Below, one piece after another: positions 22,413-30,787 of a stretch of 64,000 nucleotides of DNA (its first letter is position 1; every line of letters begins with the position of its first letter). A program made the position numbers and the translations under genes. Location: contig NZ_AMXA01000010.1 in the NCBI RefSeq assembly GCF_000310145.2, positions 1 through 64,000 of the forward strand, given 5' to 3'. Below the pieces are notes generated by a model. That model worked only from the letters and a program-made list of their open reading frames with translations, was not told the origin of the DNA and searched no databases. The DNA comes from Thauera sp. 28 (GTDB lineage: Bacteria > Pseudomonadota > Gammaproteobacteria > Burkholderiales > Rhodocyclaceae).

Positions 22413-22485
22413 ACTGAATACCCGCATGGGGCATGCCGGCAGCAAGACGGCTTGCCCTGTGGGACTGCGGCGGCGTATAGTCCGC

Positions 22486-22700
22486 CCCGTATCGAACGGG
22501 AGCGCCTGGATGAGTCCTCATCCGGGTGTGAAACGGGAAGTCCGGTGAAGCGAGGCCATAGGCCCGCCATTCCGGCGCAGCCCCCGCTGCTGTAAGCCTG
22601 ACGGTGCCATCAATCAATGCCACTGGAGCACACTGCTCCGGGAAGGCGATGGCAACCGGACGAAGGTGAGCCAGAAGACCGACCCGCTCGATCAGACAGG
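22486..22700 (+). ncRNA. Cobalamin riboswitch controlling the cob cluster
   Basis: The 446-nt gap before cobO holds the conserved blocks of the adenosylcobalamin riboswitch in order: GGGTGTGAAACGGGAAGTCC with GGTGAA (about 22524-22550), GCAGCCCCCGCTGCTGTAA (22577-22595), the B12-box region GCCACTG...CGGGAAGGC (about 22619-22648), and GTGAGCCAGAAGACC (22666-22680). Boundaries are approximate. With bound cobalamin it would repress the downstream biosynthesis genes, by termination or by hiding the cobO start about 160 nt away. The tail 22701-22858 shows no separate gene. Confidence 0.93.
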
Positions 22701-22858
22701 TAAGTGCCCCGGGGTGCGGGCAAATGCCGACTGCTTGAGCGGATCCATGATCCGCCCGCGTCCTGCCCGATCCGAGTCTCTGCGGTATCGCACGCGTTCA
22801 TGCTGTCGCCATTGTTTCGCCCTCCGCTTACACCTTGGAAGACTTGGAGCGCGGAACG

Positions 22859-23534: not shown

Positions 23535-24611
23535 ATGAGCATTCGCCCCAAGATCCCCGCCACCATCGTCACCGGCTTCCTCGGCAGCGGCAAGACGACC
23601 CTGCTGCGCCACATCCTCGCCCATGCGGGCGGGCGGCGAATCGCCGTCATCGTCAACGAGTTCGGTGAACTCGGCATCGACGGTGAGATCCTGCGCGGCT
23701 GCGGCATCGGCTGCGAGGATGAGGGAGGCGAGCGTGCTGGCCAGCTCTATGAGCTGGCCAACGGTTGCCTGTGCTGCACCGTTCAGGAGGAGTTCTACCC
23801 GGTGATGCGCGAGCTCATCGCACGCCGCGACGACATCGACCACATCCTCATCGAGACCTCCGGCCTCGCCCTGCCCAAGCCGCTGGTGCAGGCCTTCAAC
23901 TGGCCCGAGATCCGCAACGCCTGCACCGTGGACGCGGTGATCACCGTGGTGGACGTGCCCGCCGCCGCGGCCGGCCAGTTCGCGGCCAACCCGCAGGCGG
24001 TGGACGCGCAGCGCCGAGCCGACGCCAACCTCGACCACGAGTCGCCGCTGCACGAGCTTTTCGAGGACCAGCTGTCGGCAGCCGATCTGGTGATCCTGTC
24101 CAAGACCGATCTTGCCGACGAGACGGCACGCGCTACCGTCGAGGCCCTGGTACGCGAGGAACTGCCACCTGCAGTGAAGGTGGTCGCGAGCGAGCACGGG
24201 CGTATCGACCTCGAGCTCGTCCTTGGCCTGGGCGCTGCCGCCGAGGACAACATCCACCTGCGTGCGAGCCACCACGACCATGAAGAGGGCGACGCCCACG
24301 ACCATGACCACGACGCCTTCCAGTCGGTCTCGGTCGAGCTGCCCGCGGTCGATCGCGAGCGCCTGCTTGCCATCCTCCATGATCTGGTTCAGGCCCACAC
24401 CATCTATCGCATCAAGGGCTTCGTGGCCCTGCCGGGCAAGCCGATGCGCCTGGTCGTGCATGGCGTCGGCCGGCGCTTCGACAGCTACTTCGACCGGCGC
24501 TGGCTGGCGGACGAGACGCCGCGTACCCGCCTGGTGCTGATCGGCGAGGACCTCGACGCCAGCGCTCTGGCGGCTGCGCTCGCCGTTGCCGAAGCGGTCG
24601 AGACCGCCTGA
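23535..24611 (+). CDS. cobW: CobW family G3E GTPase
   Basis: This 358-residue GTPase belongs to the G3E metallochaperone family and is always found with the oxygen-dependent cobalamin pathway; it probably helps cobalt delivery to the chelatase. It shows the P-loop VTGFLGSGKTTLLRH, metal motif ELANGCLCCTV (CXCC), ETSGLALP and the base-recognition motif LSKTDL. A histidine-aspartate-rich stretch (HHDHEEGDAHDHDHD, about residues 249-263) is likely metal binding. Its stop is 1 nt from the cobN start. Confidence 0.95.
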   Translation: MSIRPKIPATIVTGFLGSGKTTLLRHILAHAGGRRIAVIVNEFGELGIDGEILRGCGIGCEDEGGERAGQLYELANGCLCCTVQEEFYPVMRELIARRDDIDHILIETSGLALPKPLVQAFNWPEIRNACTVDAVITVVDVPAAAAGQFAANPQAVDAQRRADANLDHESPLHELFEDQLSAADLVILSKTDLADETARATVEALVREELPPAVKVVASEHGRIDLELVLGLGAAAEDNIHLRASHHDHEEGDAHDHDHDAFQSVSVELPAVDRERLLAILHDLVQAHTIYRIKGFVALPGKPMRLVVHGVGRRFDSYFDRRWLADETPRTRLVLIGEDLDASALAAALAVAEAVETA

Positions 24612-24612
24612 C

Positions 24613-27600
24613 ATGCACCTGCTGGCGGCACAGGCCGGAGGCTTCGTGGAGGACGACTCGGTGGTCACGCGCATCGCGCAGGACCCGGCTGACATCGTCA
24701 TCCTCAGCGCTGCCGACACAACCCTGGCCCTGCTCGCCGCGGCCTGCCCCGGGGAGGGGTTCCCGAGCGTGCGCCTGGCCAACCTCCTGCATCTGCGTCA
24801 GCCTGCGTCGGTGGACCTCTACCTCGACGAGGTGCTGCAGCATGCGCGGGTGGTCGTCATCGACCATCTCGGCGGTGAGAGCTACTGGCCCTACGGCACC
24901 GAGCAGGTTGGCCAGGTGTGCCGGGCACATGGCATCGCGCTGGTGATGTTTTCGGGCGACGCGACCGAGGACACCAACCTGCTCATGAAGGGCAGTGTCG
25001 ACGTCGAGCTTGCACGCACGCTATGGCGCTACCTGCGCGAGGGCGGGCCGGCGAATGCGCGCAATTTCTATCGTTTCATCGGTGCGCAGTTCTTTGGCCT
25101 GGATGATGTGCCCGAACCGCCGCGCCCCTTGCCCGCGGTGGCGGTCTTCCATCCTGCGCACGATTTCGGAGAGCTCGCGCACTGGCAGGCCGACTGGGAG
25201 GACGGTGCACCCTGCGTGCCCGTGCTGTTCTACCGTGCCCATCTGCAGGCCGGCAACACCGCCGCCTTCGCCGCCTTGTGCGCCGCCTTGCAGGCGCGCG
25301 GCATGAATCCGCTGCCGCTCGCCGTAACCTCGCTCAAGGATCCGCAGTGCATCGACAGCCTGCGTGCGCTGGCGACCGAGCAGGGCGCAGCGCTCATCCT
25401 CAACACCACCGCGTTCTCGCGCGCCGCGCTCGACGAGCCCGGCGACCATGCGCTTGCGGGCGACGTGCCGGTACTGCAATTGGTGCTCTCCGGCGGCAAC
25501 GAGGCACTATGGCGCGCCGACCCCCACGGGCTGGCGCCGCGCGACATCGCCATGCACATCGCCATGCCCGAGGTCGACGGCCGCATCATCACGCGTGCGG
25601 TCAGCTTCAAGGGGCTCGACCACCGCTGCGAGGCGACGCAGAGCGATGTCGTGCAGTACCGCCCCGAGCCCGGGCGCATGGATTTCGTGGCCGAACTGGC
25701 GCAGCGCTGGTGCCGGTTGCGCACCCTGGCCAACGCTGACAAGCGCCTTGCCCTCATCCTCGCCAACTACCCGGTGCGCGACGGCCGGCTGGGCAACGGC
25801 GTCGGCCTCGATACCCCGGCCTCGGTGCTCGCCATTCTCGATCGCCTGCAGGCCGAGGGCTACGCGGTGTCCGACCGTCCTGCCGACGGCGAGGCGCTGA
25901 TGGCGCAGCTGCGCGCGGGCATCACCAACGACCCCGACAACTGGACGCTGCGACCGGCGCAGCAGAGCCTGGCGCTGGCCGACTACCTGAGCTTCCTCGA
26001 GTGCCTGCCGGCGGCCTGCCGTGAGGCCATCGTCCAGCGCTGGGGGGCGCCCGAAACCGACCCGATGCTGCGTCAAGGGCGCTTCATGATCGCCGGCCTG
26101 CGCTGCGGCAAGGTCTTCGTTGGCATCCAGCCCGCGCGCGGCTACCAGCTCGACCCGATGGCGAGCTACCACGATCCCGACCTCGTGCCGCCGCATCATT
26201 ACCTTGCCTTCTACCTGTGGCTGCGCGCGCACTGGCGCTGCGATGCCATCGTGCACGTGGGCAAGCACGGCAACCTGGAATGGCTGCCGGGCAAGAGCGT
26301 TGCGCTGTCCGAGACGTGCTGGCCGGATCTGGTGTTCGGGCCGATGCCGCACCTGTATCCCTTCATCGTCAATGATCCGGGTGAGGGCACCCAGGCCAAG
26401 CGCCGTGCGCAGGCGGTCATCATCGACCACCTGATGCCGCCGCTGACGCGTGCCGAGAGCTACGGCCCGACGCGCGACCTCGAGCGCATGGTCGACGAGT
26501 ACTACGAGGCGGTCATGCTCGACCGCAGCCGCGCCGACCTGCTGCGCCGCCAGATCCTCGACCACATCCTGCGCCACGACTTGCACCGCGACCTCGGCCT
26601 GGCCGCGCCGGCCACGACCGAGGACGAGCAACTGCTGCTCAACCGCACCGACGCCTACCTGTGCGAACTCAAGGAGGCGCAGATCCGCGACGGCCTGCAC
26701 GTGTTCGGCCATTCGCCCACCGGCCGCCTTCGCCGCGACACGCTGCTCGCCCTGGCACGCCATCCCGCTGGCGACGGGCAGGGCGCGCGCCAGGGGCTGA
26801 CGCGCGCGCTCGCAGCCGATCTCGAACTCGGTACGGGCTTCGATCCGCTCGATGCCGACTGGGCCGCAGCCTGGGAGGGGCCGCGCCCGGCGGCGCTGGC
26901 GCAAGTGGATGCAGGCGCATGGCGCACCACCGGCGATACGCGCGAACGTCTCGAATTGCTGGCCTTGCAGGTGCTCGATCACGGCCTGCCCGCTGCAGAC
27001 GACATGGCCTGGCCGGCGACGCGTGCCGTACTTGCGCGCATCGACGCCGAGCTCAAGCCGCGTCTCGATGCCTGCGGCGAGCAGGAGCTGTACCAGCTCA
27101 TGCGCGGCCTGTGCGGGCGCTTCGTGCCGGCCGGGCCGAGCGGGGCACCGACCCGCGGCCGGCCCGACGTGTTGCCCACCGGGCGCAACTTCTATTCGGT
27201 CGATACCCGCGCCGTACCCACCCAGACTAGCTGGACCCTGGGCCTGCGCTCGGCCGAGCGCCTGGTCGAGCGCCATGTGCAGGAGCATGGCGATTTTCCG
27301 CGTGCCATCGGGCTGTCGGTGTGGGGCACGGCAACCATGCGCACCGGTGGTGACGACATTGCGCAGGCCTTCGCCCTCATCGGCGTGCGTCCGAAATGGG
27401 CCGACGGCAGCCATCGCGTGAGCGACTTCGAGATCCTGCCGATGTCGCTGTTCGACCGCCCGCGCATCGACGTCACGCTGCGCGTGTCGGGCTTCTTCCG
27501 CGACGCCTTTGCCAACGTCATCCGCCTGTTCGATGCCGCGGTGCAGGCGGTCGCCGCGCTCGACGAACCCGCCGATGTGAACCCGATCCGCGCCCGCATC

Positions 27601-28383
27601 CTGGGCGAGGCGAGCGCGCTCGAGGGGCGCGGTTTTGCCTCCGCCGACGCTCGCCGTCAGGCTGGTCACCGTGTCTTCGGTGCCAAGCCCGGGGCCTATG
27701 GTGCGGGACTTCAGGGCCTGATCGAAGGCCGTAACTGGGATAGCGATGCCGACCTGGCCGCCGCCTACCTCACCTGGGGTGGGCACGCCTACGGCCAGGA
27801 CGACTATGGCACCCCCGCAAGCGACAGCTTTGCGAAGCGGCTGGCCGGAATCGACCTGGTCATGCAGAACCAGGACAACCGCGAGCATGACCTGCTCGAT
27901 TCCGATGACTACTACCAGTTCCAGGGCGGCATGAGCGCGGCGGTACGCCACCTCTCGGGCAAGCAGCCGGCACTGTACTTCGGCGACCACAGCAACCCCG
28001 GCTCGCCGGCGATCCGCTCGCTTGCCGAGGAGATCAGCCGCGTCGTGCGCAGTCGCGCGACCAACCCGAAGTGGATCGAGAGCGTGATGCGCCACGGCTA
28101 CAAGGGCGCGTTCGAGATGGCGGCGACGGTGGACTTTCTGTTTGCCTTCGATGCCACCGCGCGTGTCGTCCGCGACGACCAGTACGCCCGTGTCACCGAC
28201 GCCTATCTGGAGGATGCCGCTGCCCGCGACTTCCTCCAGCGCCACAACCCCGAAGCGCTCGCCGGCATCTGCGAGCGCCTGCTCGAAGCCATGGACCGAG
28301 GCCTGTGGCAGTCGCCCGGCGACTACCGTGGGCGTGTCGAGCAGCACTTGCTCGCTGCCGAACAGCGTGTGGAGGAACGATGA
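24613..28383 (+). CDS. cobN: Cobaltochelatase subunit CobN
   Basis: This 1256-residue large subunit of the ATP-dependent aerobic cobalt chelatase inserts Co2+ into hydrogenobyrinic acid a,c-diamide. The family, shared with ChlH/BchH, is recognised by RCDAIVHVGKHGNLEWLPGK (about residues 548-567), GPMPHLYPFIVNDPGEGTQA, GRNFYSVDTRAVPTQTSW and ESVMRHGYKGAFEMAATVDF. The ATG at 24613 follows the cobW stop by 1 nt. Its stop overlaps the chlI start (ATGA). The partners here are ChlI/ChlD rather than CobS/CobT. Confidence 0.97.
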   Translation: MHLLAAQAGGFVEDDSVVTRIAQDPADIVILSAADTTLALLAAACPGEGFPSVRLANLLHLRQPASVDLYLDEVLQHARVVVIDHLGGESYWPYGTEQVGQVCRAHGIALVMFSGDATEDTNLLMKGSVDVELARTLWRYLREGGPANARNFYRFIGAQFFGLDDVPEPPRPLPAVAVFHPAHDFGELAHWQADWEDGAPCVPVLFYRAHLQAGNTAAFAALCAALQARGMNPLPLAVTSLKDPQCIDSLRALATEQGAALILNTTAFSRAALDEPGDHALAGDVPVLQLVLSGGNEALWRADPHGLAPRDIAMHIAMPEVDGRIITRAVSFKGLDHRCEATQSDVVQYRPEPGRMDFVAELAQRWCRLRTLANADKRLALILANYPVRDGRLGNGVGLDTPASVLAILDRLQAEGYAVSDRPADGEALMAQLRAGITNDPDNWTLRPAQQSLALADYLSFLECLPAACREAIVQRWGAPETDPMLRQGRFMIAGLRCGKVFVGIQPARGYQLDPMASYHDPDLVPPHHYLAFYLWLRAHWRCDAIVHVGKHGNLEWLPGKSVALSETCWPDLVFGPMPHLYPFIVNDPGEGTQAKRRAQAVIIDHLMPPLTRAESYGPTRDLERMVDEYYEAVMLDRSRADLLRRQILDHILRHDLHRDLGLAAPATTEDEQLLLNRTDAYLCELKEAQIRDGLHVFGHSPTGRLRRDTLLALARHPAGDGQGARQGLTRALAADLELGTGFDPLDADWAAAWEGPRPAALAQVDAGAWRTTGDTRERLELLALQVLDHGLPAADDMAWPATRAVLARIDAELKPRLDACGEQELYQLMRGLCGRFVPAGPSGAPTRGRPDVLPTGRNFYSVDTRAVPTQTSWTLGLRSAERLVERHVQEHGDFPRAIGLSVWGTATMRTGGDDIAQAFALIGVRPKWADGSHRVSDFEILPMSLFDRPRIDVTLRVSGFFRDAFANVIRLFDAAVQAVAALDEPADVNPIRARILGEASALEGRGFASADARRQAGHRVFGAKPGAYGAGLQGLIEGRNWDSDADLAAAYLTWGGHAYGQDDYGTPASDSFAKRLAGIDLVMQNQDNREHDLLDSDDYYQFQGGMSAAVRHLSGKQPALYFGDHSNPGSPAIRSLAEEISRVVRSRATNPKWIESVMRHGYKGAFEMAATVDFLFAFDATARVVRDDQYARVTDAYLEDAAARDFLQRHNPEALAGICERLLEAMDRGLWQSPGDYRGRVEQHLLAAEQRVEER

Positions 28384-29399
28384 GCCCTGGTGCCAGCGTC
28401 GGCCTGCCGCCGGCCTTTCCCTTCGTCGCCCTACATGGCCAGTCTGCGCTGCAGACGGCCTTGCTGCTGTCTACAGTCGATCCGCTGATCGGCGGCGTGC
28501 TGGTGGAGGGGCCGCGCGGCATCGCCAAGTCGACCGCCGCACGCGCGCTGGCAGCCCTGCTGCCGGGCGGGCGCTTCGTCAATCTGCCACTGTCGGCAAG
28601 TGAGGAACAGCTGGTGGGTACGCTCGACCTCGAGGCTGCCCTCAAGGCCGGCGAAGTACGCTTCCGTCCCGGCCTGCTGGCGCGCGCGCACGAGGGCGTG
28701 CTCTATGTAGACGAGGTCAATCTGCTCGCCGACGGTTTGGTGGATCTGCTGCTCGACGTGTGTGCGAGCGGCATCAATCACGTCGAGCGCGACGGCATCA
28801 GCCACGTGCATCCGGCGCGCATCACGCTCGTTGGCACGATGAACCCGGAGGAGGGCGAGCTGAGGCCGCAACTGCTCGACCGCTTCGGCCTCTTCGTGCG
28901 TATCGGCAACGCCCTGGCGCCGGCTGCGCGCGAGGCCATCGTGCGTGCCCGCCTCGCCTTCGACGCCGATCCGGCGGGCTTCGTCGCCAGCCATGACGAA
29001 GCCCAGCGCATGCTCGGCGCACGTATCGTCGCGGCGCGTGCCGCGCTGCCGGCCATCGGCTTCGACGACCAGACCCATGCTGCCGTGGCGGCACGCTGCC
29101 ATGCCGCGGCAGTGGAGGGGGTCCGCGCCGATCTGGTGATGTTGCGTGCGGCCCGCGCCCACGCCGCGCTCGAGGGTCGCACGCGCATCGAGGTCGCCGA
29201 TGTCGATGCGGTCGCCGAACTGGTGCTCGCCCATCGACGCCAGGACGACGCCGAGCGCGCAGCGCAGCCGCCGGCGCCTGCACCGGCCACTGATCAGCCG
29301 CCGCCCGCCAGCGGCGAGGACTGGGGGGCGCTGCCTGCGCAGGACGTACCCATTGCTGCAGTCAAGAACGTGAGGCCGCTCAATGCAAAAAAGCCCTGA
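28380..29399 (+). CDS. chlI: Chelatase AAA+ subunit (ChlI/BchI-like), zero-frame product
   Basis: This 339-residue AAA+ ATPase powers the CobN chelatase. It shows Walker A GVLVEGPRGIAKSTAARAL (about residues 40-58), EEQLVGTLDLEAALKAGEVR, Walker B GVLYVDEVNLL, and the sensor LVGTMNPEEGELRPQLLDRF. The last 40 residues (QPPAPAPATDQPPPASGEDW onwards) are a Pro/Ala-rich linker like the one joining AAA and VWA parts of ChlD. The ATG overlaps the cobN stop, with GGAGG upstream. The frame ends NAKKP-stop directly after the slippery sequence A AAA AAG, so this is probably the short product of a chlD gene that also yields a longer frameshifted one. Confidence 0.92.
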   Translation: MSPGASVGLPPAFPFVALHGQSALQTALLLSTVDPLIGGVLVEGPRGIAKSTAARALAALLPGGRFVNLPLSASEEQLVGTLDLEAALKAGEVRFRPGLLARAHEGVLYVDEVNLLADGLVDLLLDVCASGINHVERDGISHVHPARITLVGTMNPEEGELRPQLLDRFGLFVRIGNALAPAAREAIVRARLAFDADPAGFVASHDEAQRMLGARIVAARAALPAIGFDDQTHAAVAARCHAAAVEGVRADLVMLRAARAHAALEGRTRIEVADVDAVAELVLAHRRQDDAERAAQPPAPAPATDQPPPASGEDWGALPAQDVPIAAVKNVRPLNAKKP

Positions 29400-29438
29400 C
29401 GCGTCTCGCAGCGCCCGGCAAGGGGGCTGCGGGACGCG
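29371..29438 (+). promoter_or_regulatory. Programmed -1 ribosomal frameshift cassette (chlI to chlD)
   Basis: Three stimulatory parts are present in the right order and spacing. An SD-like TGAGG is at 29371-29375. The slippery heptamer A AAA AAG is at 29387-29393, in phase with zero-frame codons AAA AAG. After a 6-nt spacer containing the zero-frame TGA (29397-29399) comes a hairpin with arms 29400-29416 and 29422-29438 and loop GGCAA: 16 pairs, one G-U among them, plus one G-G mismatch. This matches the layout of the E. coli dnaX signal. A -1 shift enters exactly the frame of the VWA domain. Confidence 0.88.
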
Positions 29439-30064
29439 CGCCGAACGCGCCGCGGCGCGCACGCGGGTGGCGCGTTGCCGGTGGCCGCATCGACTGGCCG
29501 CGCAGCCTTGCCGCCAAGGGGGTCGGCGCGCTCGAGCCTGCCCACCTGCGTCGTCGACCGCGCCCCGTGGGCAGCGCGTGCCTGCACTGCCTGGTGCTCG
29601 ATTGCTCGGGCTCGATGCTGAAGGGGCGCCGTCTGGCGCTCGCCAAGGGTTTGCTGCTGGCGTGGACCGCTCAGCTCTACCGGCGGCGCGAGTCGCTCGC
29701 TGTGATCGGCTTCTCGGGCACTGCGGCGCGCGTGCTGCAGCCGCCGCGCAAGGCGGTCGCCTTCAACACGCGCTGGATCGCGCCCGTCGCCGGCGGCGGT
29801 GGCTCACCCGCCGCTTCGGCGGTGGTGCTCGCCGATCGCATGCTCGCCAGGCGTCGGCGCGCACAGGCAGGCGAGACAGTCCATCTCTGGCTGCTGTCGG
29901 ACGTGCGCTTTGCCAGCCTGCCGCCGCGCCCGCTACATGCCACGCACTGCAGCGTCATCGATTTCGACGAGGGGCCGTTCGCCCTCGGTCGTGCGCGCCA
30001 GCTCGCGCAGCTTTGGGGTGCGGAGCATCTGTCCGCATCCGCTTTCGCGTCGGCCCTCGGCTGA
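29393..30064 (+). CDS. chlD: ChlD C-terminal VWA segment, expressed by -1 frameshift from chlI
   Basis: About 223 codons in the -1 frame encode the integrin-I/VWA domain of the chelatase D subunit. The frame has no ATG, GTG or TTG start before 29567. Even so, the codons before it (WRVAGGRIDWPRSLAAKG, about 29468-29521) are clearly ChlD linker sequence, so translation must enter earlier. Entry by the frameshift at 29387-29393 gives one protein of about 561 residues from 28380, normal for ChlD. A CTG at 29396 overlapping the chlI stop is a weaker alternative start. MIDAS residues: DCSGSM, GGGGSPAASA and LLSDVRF. It docks the AAA+ ring onto CobN. Confidence 0.88.
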   Translation, partial: ALTRLAAPGKGAAGRAPNAPRRARGWRVAGGRIDWPRSLAAKGVGALEPAHLRRRPRPVGSACLHCLVLDCSGSMLKGRRLALAKGLLLAWTAQLYRRRESLAVIGFSGTAARVLQPPRKAVAFNTRWIAPVAGGGGSPAASAVVLADRMLARRRRAQAGETVHLWLLSDVRFASLPPRPLHATHCSVIDFDEGPFALGRARQLAQLWGAEHLSASAFASALG

Positions 30065-30106: not shown

Positions 30107-30787
30107 ATGCATATCGAACCGGGTATCGTCGAGGGCAGCAAGATCCTGCTCAGTTATGGCACCGCTGCGGCGGCCATCGGTTTTGCCGGCAAGCTCGTCG
30201 TGGATGCCGTCAAGCGTGACGGGGCAGCGGCAATCATGCTGCGCGCCGTGCTTGCCACCGTCCTGGTCTTCGCCTTCTTCGAGATCCTGCCCACGCAGGA
30301 AGTCGGCGTTTCCGAGGTCCACCTCATCCTTGGCTCTACGCTGCTGCTGCTCTTCGGCGCGGCGCCCACGGCGATCGGCCTGGCGCTCGGGCTGCTCGCC
30401 CAGGGGCTGTTCTTCGCTCCCGACGACCTGCCGCAGTACACGATGAACGTCACCACCTTGCTGGTGCCGCTGTTTGCCATCGCTGCGCTCGCACGCCGCA
30501 TCATCCCAGCGAACACGCCCTACGTGGACCTGAGCTATGGCCAGGTGTTCAGGCTGTCGCTGGCCTACCAGGGCGGCATCGTCGCCTGGGTGGCGTTCTG
30601 GGCGCTCTATGGCCAGGGCGTGGGCGCGGACAACCTGAGCAATGTGTTCAGCTTTGGTGCTGCCTACATGCTGGTGGTCGTGCTCGAGCCGCTCGTTGAC
30701 CTTGGCGTGCTCGCCGCGGCGAAGGCGCTTCATCAGCTCAAGGGCAGCATGGCTGTCGACAAGCGCCTGTACGAAGGCGCGCGCTGA
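30107..30787 (+). CDS. CbiM-like energy-coupling-factor permease, putative cobalt uptake
   Basis: This 226-residue inner-membrane protein resembles CbiM (PF01891), the substrate-capture component of cobalt ECF transporters. The start at 30107 gives MHIEPGIVEGSKILLSYGTA; a histidine at position 2 is the metal ligand in CbiM, and AGGAG lies 8 nt upstream. Seven or so helices follow (AIMLRAVLATVLVFAFFEIL; LILGSTLLLLFGAAPTAIGL). CbiN, CbiQ and CbiO are not in this window, so it may act alone or with distant partners. Its place between the chelatase genes and cobG supports cobalt supply. Confidence 0.8.
   Translation: MHIEPGIVEGSKILLSYGTAAAAIGFAGKLVVDAVKRDGAAAIMLRAVLATVLVFAFFEILPTQEVGVSEVHLILGSTLLLLFGAAPTAIGLALGLLAQGLFFAPDDLPQYTMNVTTLLVPLFAIAALARRIIPANTPYVDLSYGQVFRLSLAYQGGIVAWVAFWALYGQGVGADNLSNVFSFGAAYMLVVVLEPLVDLGVLAAAKALHQLKGSMAVDKRLYEGAR

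Follow-up and report, generated by a model that had tools for sequence, protein, structure and literature searches.

A −1 frameshift signal in the fs-chlD gene of Thauera sp. 28 that very probably yields both ChlI and ChlD of an aerobic cobaltochelatase

A 64,000-nucleotide stretch of Thauera sp. 28 DNA (contig NZ_AMXA01000010.1, positions 1 to 64,000; hereafter the window) carries a chelatase gene in which the AAA+ part, chlI, ends at a stop codon and the VWA part of ChlD continues in the −1 frame, which raises the question of how the VWA part is translated. A sequence-only reading of the window had proposed that a dnaX-style −1 programmed frameshift makes ChlI and ChlD from one gene, and we consider it very probable that this fs-chlD gene of an aerobic cobaltochelatase yields both proteins in this way. 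Most ribosomes would terminate at TGA 29397, giving the AAA+ ATPase ChlI. A fraction of the ribosomes, paused by a hairpin from 29400 and probably pulled back by an upstream AGG, would slip by −1 on A_AAA_AAG and make ChlD, a 561-residue AAA+/VWA protein; ChlI and ChlD would both work with CobN. The coordinates and translations of the junction, re-checked base by base, are as follows.

28380..29399, + strand: ChlI, AAA+ ATPase, zero-frame product of 339 amino acids (translation from ATG 28380 to TGA 29397-29399; profile matches)
29371..29375, + strand: TGAGG, a Shine-Dalgarno-like element, lineage-restricted (sequence, codon comparison)
29387..29393, + strand: A_AAA_AAG shift site, phase correct (codons GCA AAA AAG CCC TGA)
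29397..29399, + strand: zero-frame stop TGA, one codon 3' of the shift site (sequence; preceded by C in 33/33 junctions)
29400..29438, + strand: hairpin, putatively stimulatory, abutting the stop, 16/17 positions paired (fold, covariation)
29387..30064, + strand: −1 frame with a basic linker and the VWA domain of ChlD (translation, VWA_2, TIGR02442)
29567..30064, + strand: 165-amino-acid open reading frame in the VWA frame from a GTG start-type codon, judged not used (list of open reading frames, relatives)

The positions given earlier for TGAGG, the heptamer, the TGA and the hairpin thus hold base by base. The VWA frame stays open over 29294-30064, and a slip at the heptamer gives 561 residues, namely ChlI residues 1-338 followed by 223 residues of the −1 frame, the size that the sequence-only reading had estimated. 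With the heptamer in the P and A sites the spacer is CCCTGA and the stem begins six bases further 3', a dnaX-like geometry; the CTG at 29396 overlaps the TGA and encodes Leu in the −1 frame. The hairpin spans 39 nucleotides and has, over the 17 positions already noted, 16 pairs and one G-G mismatch. Folding of 29394-29445 gave −36.4 kcal/mol (z score −4.11), with 0/200 shuffles as good. In a wider 121-nucleotide fold the z score is only −1.62 and 13/200 shuffles are as good, because the surroundings are very GC-rich. A search of Rfam over the junction returned no match at the gathering threshold; a gyrA RNA candidate at 29368-29445 (18 bits against a gathering score of 45, E 0.044) was taken as chance. 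The window has three copies of AAAAAAG (0.58 expected; 3/100 shuffles reach 3), which is not rare enough for the heptamer alone to be more than weak evidence, so that conservation carries the case.

To judge conservation, we collected relatives from a contig search (18 loci among 488 stretches) and from family, order, class and genus searches (9/150, 11/399, 18/395, 6/369 and 6/29 genomes matched at each search's cut-off), after dropping L007-L010 (32-42% identity, long single frames) and the window copies L001 and L002. The 52 loci compared comprised 42 with the −1 arrangement, seven in-frame fusions and three cut by contig ends, and the 42 reduced to 33 distinct junctions, the window's own included. 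Some junctions are common to same-genus loci and Thauera records, in agreement with the origin of the window. The order A_AAA_AAR, one NNC codon, TGA and stem was kept in 33/33 of these junctions, the heptamer being of the AAG type in 16 and of the AAA type in 17. The invariant TGA was also considered as a regulatory stop; this is not needed, as the preceding C gives the CTG (Leu) of the −1 frame. The heptamer is A_AAA_AAA in 6/7 plasmid loci, and a stem follows the TGA in 7/7; the seventh, L090 (Cupriavidus sp. EM10 plasmid p352-1, ~2375-2390), has C_AAA_AAA, which is either a less efficient site or an error in the sequence.

The stem itself varies, with 14 arm types (first seven bases) among the 33 junctions, and the compensatory changes that the sequence-only reading had suggested looking for maintain it. 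At least seven consecutive pairs, beginning at base one or two, were formed by 32/33 own arms, by 124/762 exchanged differing arms and at 346/3300 random places in the same genes. When registers were taken from each fold, 228/231 cells of the outer stem were canonical, whereas 5000 reassignments of the 3' arm averaged 160.7 and never exceeded 190. Own arms paired at 9.2/10 positions on average, and arms swapped between differing sequences at 4.9. A fixed-register count gave 182/195 pairs, compared with 61-85 when slid, in the 15 sequences with a 39-nucleotide hairpin, a set that was picked by its span and is biased towards pairing.

Frameshifting of this kind is already published, as the sequence-only reading had noted, and the Thauera gene joins the known fs-chlD family. 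Antonov 2013 (PMC3711429) lists, across six genera, 23 −1-shifted 'magnesium chelatase' genes, and reporter tests of three of these genes gave 63, 40 and 10% frameshifting; the Atkins 2016 review finds A_AAA_AAR under purifying selection in these genes and notes their stem potential; and Kuznetsov 2022 (PMC9227772) states that fs-chlD gives both subunits, that the usual signal is a slippery site plus a downstream structure, and counts over 1200 genomes in a database. Overlapping AAA/VWA frames, the −1 shift, A_AAA_AAR, the downstream stem and a CobN-type cobaltochelatase without a separate small subunit are all shared with the genes described in PMC3711429 and PMC9227772, where fs-chlD is known from Pseudomonas, Burkholderia, Delftia and archaea. 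The heptamer, the one-codon spacing to the TGA and the covarying stem in 33/33 junctions, together with the published reporters, support the production of ChlI and ChlD from one gene by a −1 slip, and from them we infer both the frameshifting in Thauera sp. 28 and its efficiency.

The upstream element behaves differently. Eight codons before the stop, an AGG codon is present in 16/33 junctions, so that in the three-part cassette envisaged earlier the heptamer and the hairpin are general and the Shine-Dalgarno-like part is not; AGG is missing in several lineages, e.g., G057, Azoarcus indigens and most Comamonas rows. Arg stands at that position in 19 junctions and is encoded by AGG in 16/19 of them, compared with 14/865 Arg codons elsewhere in the ChlI parts (binomial p 2e-26, with related rows). 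This codon bias suggests that the element, although lineage-restricted, appears to be selected, and AGG may have a role in frameshifting. AGG accompanies AAG heptamers in 13/16 cases and AAA heptamers in 3/17 (Fisher p 0.0004), the latter becoming 5/22 once the plasmid loci are added; both labels are clustered on the tree, so the association is not phylogenetically independent and is suggestive only.

In E. coli, slippage at the dnaX site is favoured by weak pairing of the only tRNA-Lys with AAG; a tRNA-Lys(CUU) is expected to bind AAG tightly and to make slippage there harder (Atkins 2016 review, which adds that a second lysine tRNA may explain polymerase slippage in Thermus). In the window genome, as in 13/15 genomes examined, tRNA-Lys genes TTT and CTT are both present by a pattern-based search that may miss divergent tRNAs, so A_AAA_AAG is not read there by a sole tRNA-Lys(UUU), and the E. 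coli dnaX logic is not directly transferable. A simple rule by which tRNA-Lys(CUU) sets the heptamer type was rejected, CUU genes being found in 7/9 AAG and 6/6 AAA genomes. Either AAG would slip despite tRNA-Lys(CUU), or the peptidyl-tRNA would slip first, leaving AAA for direct decoding in the −1 frame, as the same review discusses. A possible though doubtful extension is that in hosts with tRNA-Lys(CUU) A_AAA_AAG is a poor site that is kept with AGG compensating, and that lineages exchange two designs, A_AAA_AAA with hairpin or A_AAA_AAG with Shine-Dalgarno element and hairpin, with the P-site tRNA slipping and AAA being decoded directly in the −1 frame.

Next, we asked what accompanies the gene, in a sample of 28 carriers and 15 of 23 same-genus non-carriers. 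CobN was found in 27/28 carriers and 0/15 non-carriers, the exception being G605, a genome that is 86% complete, and a ChlI match at E 1e-40 in 28/28 and 0/15, respectively. A second ChlI was not found in 26/28 carriers; more than one match occurred only in G687 (three) and G1100 (two). The junction was readable in 26/28 carriers, of which 25 were frameshifted and one, G687, was fused; in G557 and G572 it breaks at contig ends. The assemblies of these two loci (L051 and L052) break near the hairpin, with the junction split over contigs.

The fused gene of G687, L053, has no A-run at its junction and nests inside the frameshifting clade of the tree. A tree constrained to keep all 33 frameshifted genes together, apart from four fused ones, was rejected by the approximately unbiased test (p-AU 0.0006), a value weakened by the group having been named after the first tree was seen. 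Contig C15 of G687 carries together a separate ChlI (428 bits, just below cut-off), a 669-amino-acid ChlI-related frame and a CobN/BchH-like gene, which are probably a Mg-chelatase set. On this evidence, L053 appears to have reverted naturally from the frameshifted to the fused state in a host with another ChlI.

Two further arrangements were tried and rejected. The opposite, dnaX-like one, in which the zero frame is long and the shift short, is not supported in the fused loci, since 6/7 are without an A_AAA_AA-type site at the AAA-VWA junction. The fused ChlD of L028 (a Bacillota metagenome-assembled genome, ~1758-1767) has GGGGAAAAAACA with an in-phase A_AAA_AAC site (AAAAAAC) shortly 5' of the VWA match, which could be such an arrangement. 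As a replacement medium subunit, CobT was not favoured either: CobT-like matches, all below cut-off, occur in 7/28 carriers and 8/15 non-carriers, and therefore do not follow CobN. Long CobT-like genes (639-720 bits, cut-off 759) are present in G048, G675, G720, G103 and G686, which are of the same genus and without CobN, and a weaker, other CobT-like form is present in the window genome and relatives. The window genome has a CobT-like match below cut-off on contig C4.

Several observations weigh against the frameshifting explanation. Over the six codons past the shift, amino acid identity in the −1 frame is 0.449 in all 33 junctions, compared with 0.414 and 0.444 in the other frames, and 0.778 compared with 0.706 and 0.717 in the 15 Zoogloeaceae-like rows, weak differences in both cases. 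The tRNA-Lys(CUU) of the window genome would be expected to hinder slippage on AAG. The CTG over the TGA is present in 33/33 junctions, so conservation alone cannot exclude reinitiation at CTG. G1100 keeps the frameshift yet has a separate ChlI, which also runs against a simple rule for when the frameshift is kept. Finally, five fused-only genomes (G318, G323, G1057, G1142 and G831) have CobN and one in-frame AAA-VWA gene whose junction lacks an A-run, and a search with TIGR02030 at E 1e-40 gave no further match; as these genomes have no separate ChlI, two products are not needed everywhere.

The universal CTG leads directly to the rival in which two separate proteins are made, ChlI ending at the TGA and a free VWA protein arising by reinitiation at CTG 29396 or by initiation at GTG 29567. 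The 165-amino-acid frame from this GTG begins just 5' of the VWA motif, initiation at downstream starts occurs in some gene pairs of the Antonov 2013 study (PMC3711429), and RefSeq gives two coding sequences in L089 and L094, the two Comamonas plasmids whose annotation is usable, split into an 'ATP-binding protein' and a 'VWA domain-containing protein' that starts after the stop. However, internal ATG/GTG/TTG starts are not conserved: L004, L006, L012 and L017 (4/33) have none in the stretch that starts up to 60 codons upstream and ends at the VWA motif, in a search that used a fixed length for L019, where the motif was not found. Inspection by eye showed no suitably spaced Shine-Dalgarno sequence before the CTG or the GTG of the window. 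The sequence-only claim that the VWA part has no usable start is corrected to an in-frame GTG that is judged not used. A conserved Leu in the −1 frame accounts for the CTG, AAA and VWA are fused in relatives and in the TIGR02442 model, and reinitiation leaves A_AAA_AAR in 33/33 junctions and the stem unexplained. Given heptamer and stem, reinitiation at CTG is disfavoured, and we regard separate proteins as very unlikely. Even less probable is slippage of RNA polymerase on the A-run, by which A's would be added or dropped and edited mRNAs translated normally into the long product, as polymerase slippage is used by Thermus dnaX (Atkins 2016 review, in part). The A-run is conserved, with ten A's in L006 (Azoarcus indigens, G130), but the window and 15 other junctions have only six A's, then G. 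Such a run is short for polymerase slippage, which would also leave the covarying hairpin directly after the stop unexplained.

The frameshift could, on the other hand, be real and serve only access to the VWA part, released ChlI having no necessary role and the ratio not being selected. The five fused-only genomes favour this, although in those lineages the product may be divided by some other means. The stop, heptamer and stem nevertheless persist in 33/33 junctions though their loss would be easy, and the sole in-frame fusion nested in the clade, L053, sits in a genome with another ChlI. In the classical enzyme, CobS and CobT are separate proteins, which also counts against this rival, and we hold it to be unlikely. 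Slippage may set the ratio of AAA+ to AAA+-VWA subunits, as the sequence-only reading proposed, and the ChlI:ChlD ratio may matter; the stronger form, a ratio that is needed, is opposed by the fused-only genomes. A sequencing error at the A-run or a decaying gene has a negligible chance: A-runs are error-prone, but the same frame layout recurs in 33 distinct junctions from independent assemblies, which refutes the error that the sequence-only reading had named as a danger. Chance is ruled out as well.

Profile searches and gene context identify the enzyme. ChlI has an intact P-loop and matches Pfam AAA_lid_2, AAA_5 and Mg_chelatase; its NCBIfam matches are TIGR02442 (380 bits, the best), a putative cobaltochelatase model of an AAA-VWA fusion, and TIGR02030 (306 bits), both below the whole-protein cut-offs. 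The −1 frame part matches Pfam VWA_2 (32.1 bits, above cut-off) and TIGR02442 (64 bits). Two features upstream place the gene.

22481..22701, + strand: cobalamin riboswitch, 5' of cobO-cobW-cobN-chlID (RF00174 104.1 bits, gathering score 31.5)
24586..28383, + strand: cobN, cobaltochelatase large subunit, its end overlapping the chlI start (TIGR02257 1599.7 bits, cut-off 822)

The neighbours are cobO, cobW, a CbiM-like protein and cobH, cobI, cobJ, cobK and cobL-type genes, with a CobG-like neighbour below cut-off (208.9 bits, cut-off 234.8). The gene cluster is an aerobic B12 cluster, and the enzyme is thus a cobalt chelatase by context. The window genome has one ChlI match only and CobN above cut-off (CobS was not searched for). 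A second CobN/BchH-like gene of this genome (G000:C17:46569-49853) is below the CobN cut-off. Directly 3' of chlD, the CbiM-like membrane protein (30107-30787) matches PF01891 (48.9 bits, above cut-off) and no NCBIfam model; a similar protein lies 3' of the gene in L005.

How far the junction is dnaX-style can now be stated. With E. coli dnaX it shares A_AAA_AAG, an upstream Shine-Dalgarno-like element, a downstream hairpin and AAA+ subunits of two lengths. The polarity is reversed, the zero frame here giving the short product and the slip the long one, as is known for dnaX in a few bacteria (Atkins 2016 review, in part), and E. coli has one tRNA-Lys whereas the window genome has two. In-frame cobaltochelatase ChlD (TIGR02442) and BchI/BchD have homologous AAA and VWA domains but lie in one frame without the cassette, and a separate gene encodes the small subunit in BchI/BchD. 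Thauera-type junctions and a Shine-Dalgarno-like AGG are not mentioned in the text of PMC3711429 and PMC9227772 compared, and among the open-access papers covered we found none on chlD frameshifting with a Shine-Dalgarno element or naming Thauera for chelatase frameshifting. To the published family we add the covariation of the stem, its abutting the TGA, the nested in-frame reversal, the lineage-restricted AGG and a host with two tRNA-Lys. The stem covariation backs recoding-dependent cobaltochelatases in Thauera/Azoarcus-type bacteria, which gene annotation splits, overlooking the frameshift in L089 and L094; the nested fusion, whose host has its own ChlI, is a natural test of why the frameshift is kept, and the two-tRNA-Lys host is a natural test of A_AAA_AAG slippage outside the single-tRNA situation of E. 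coli.

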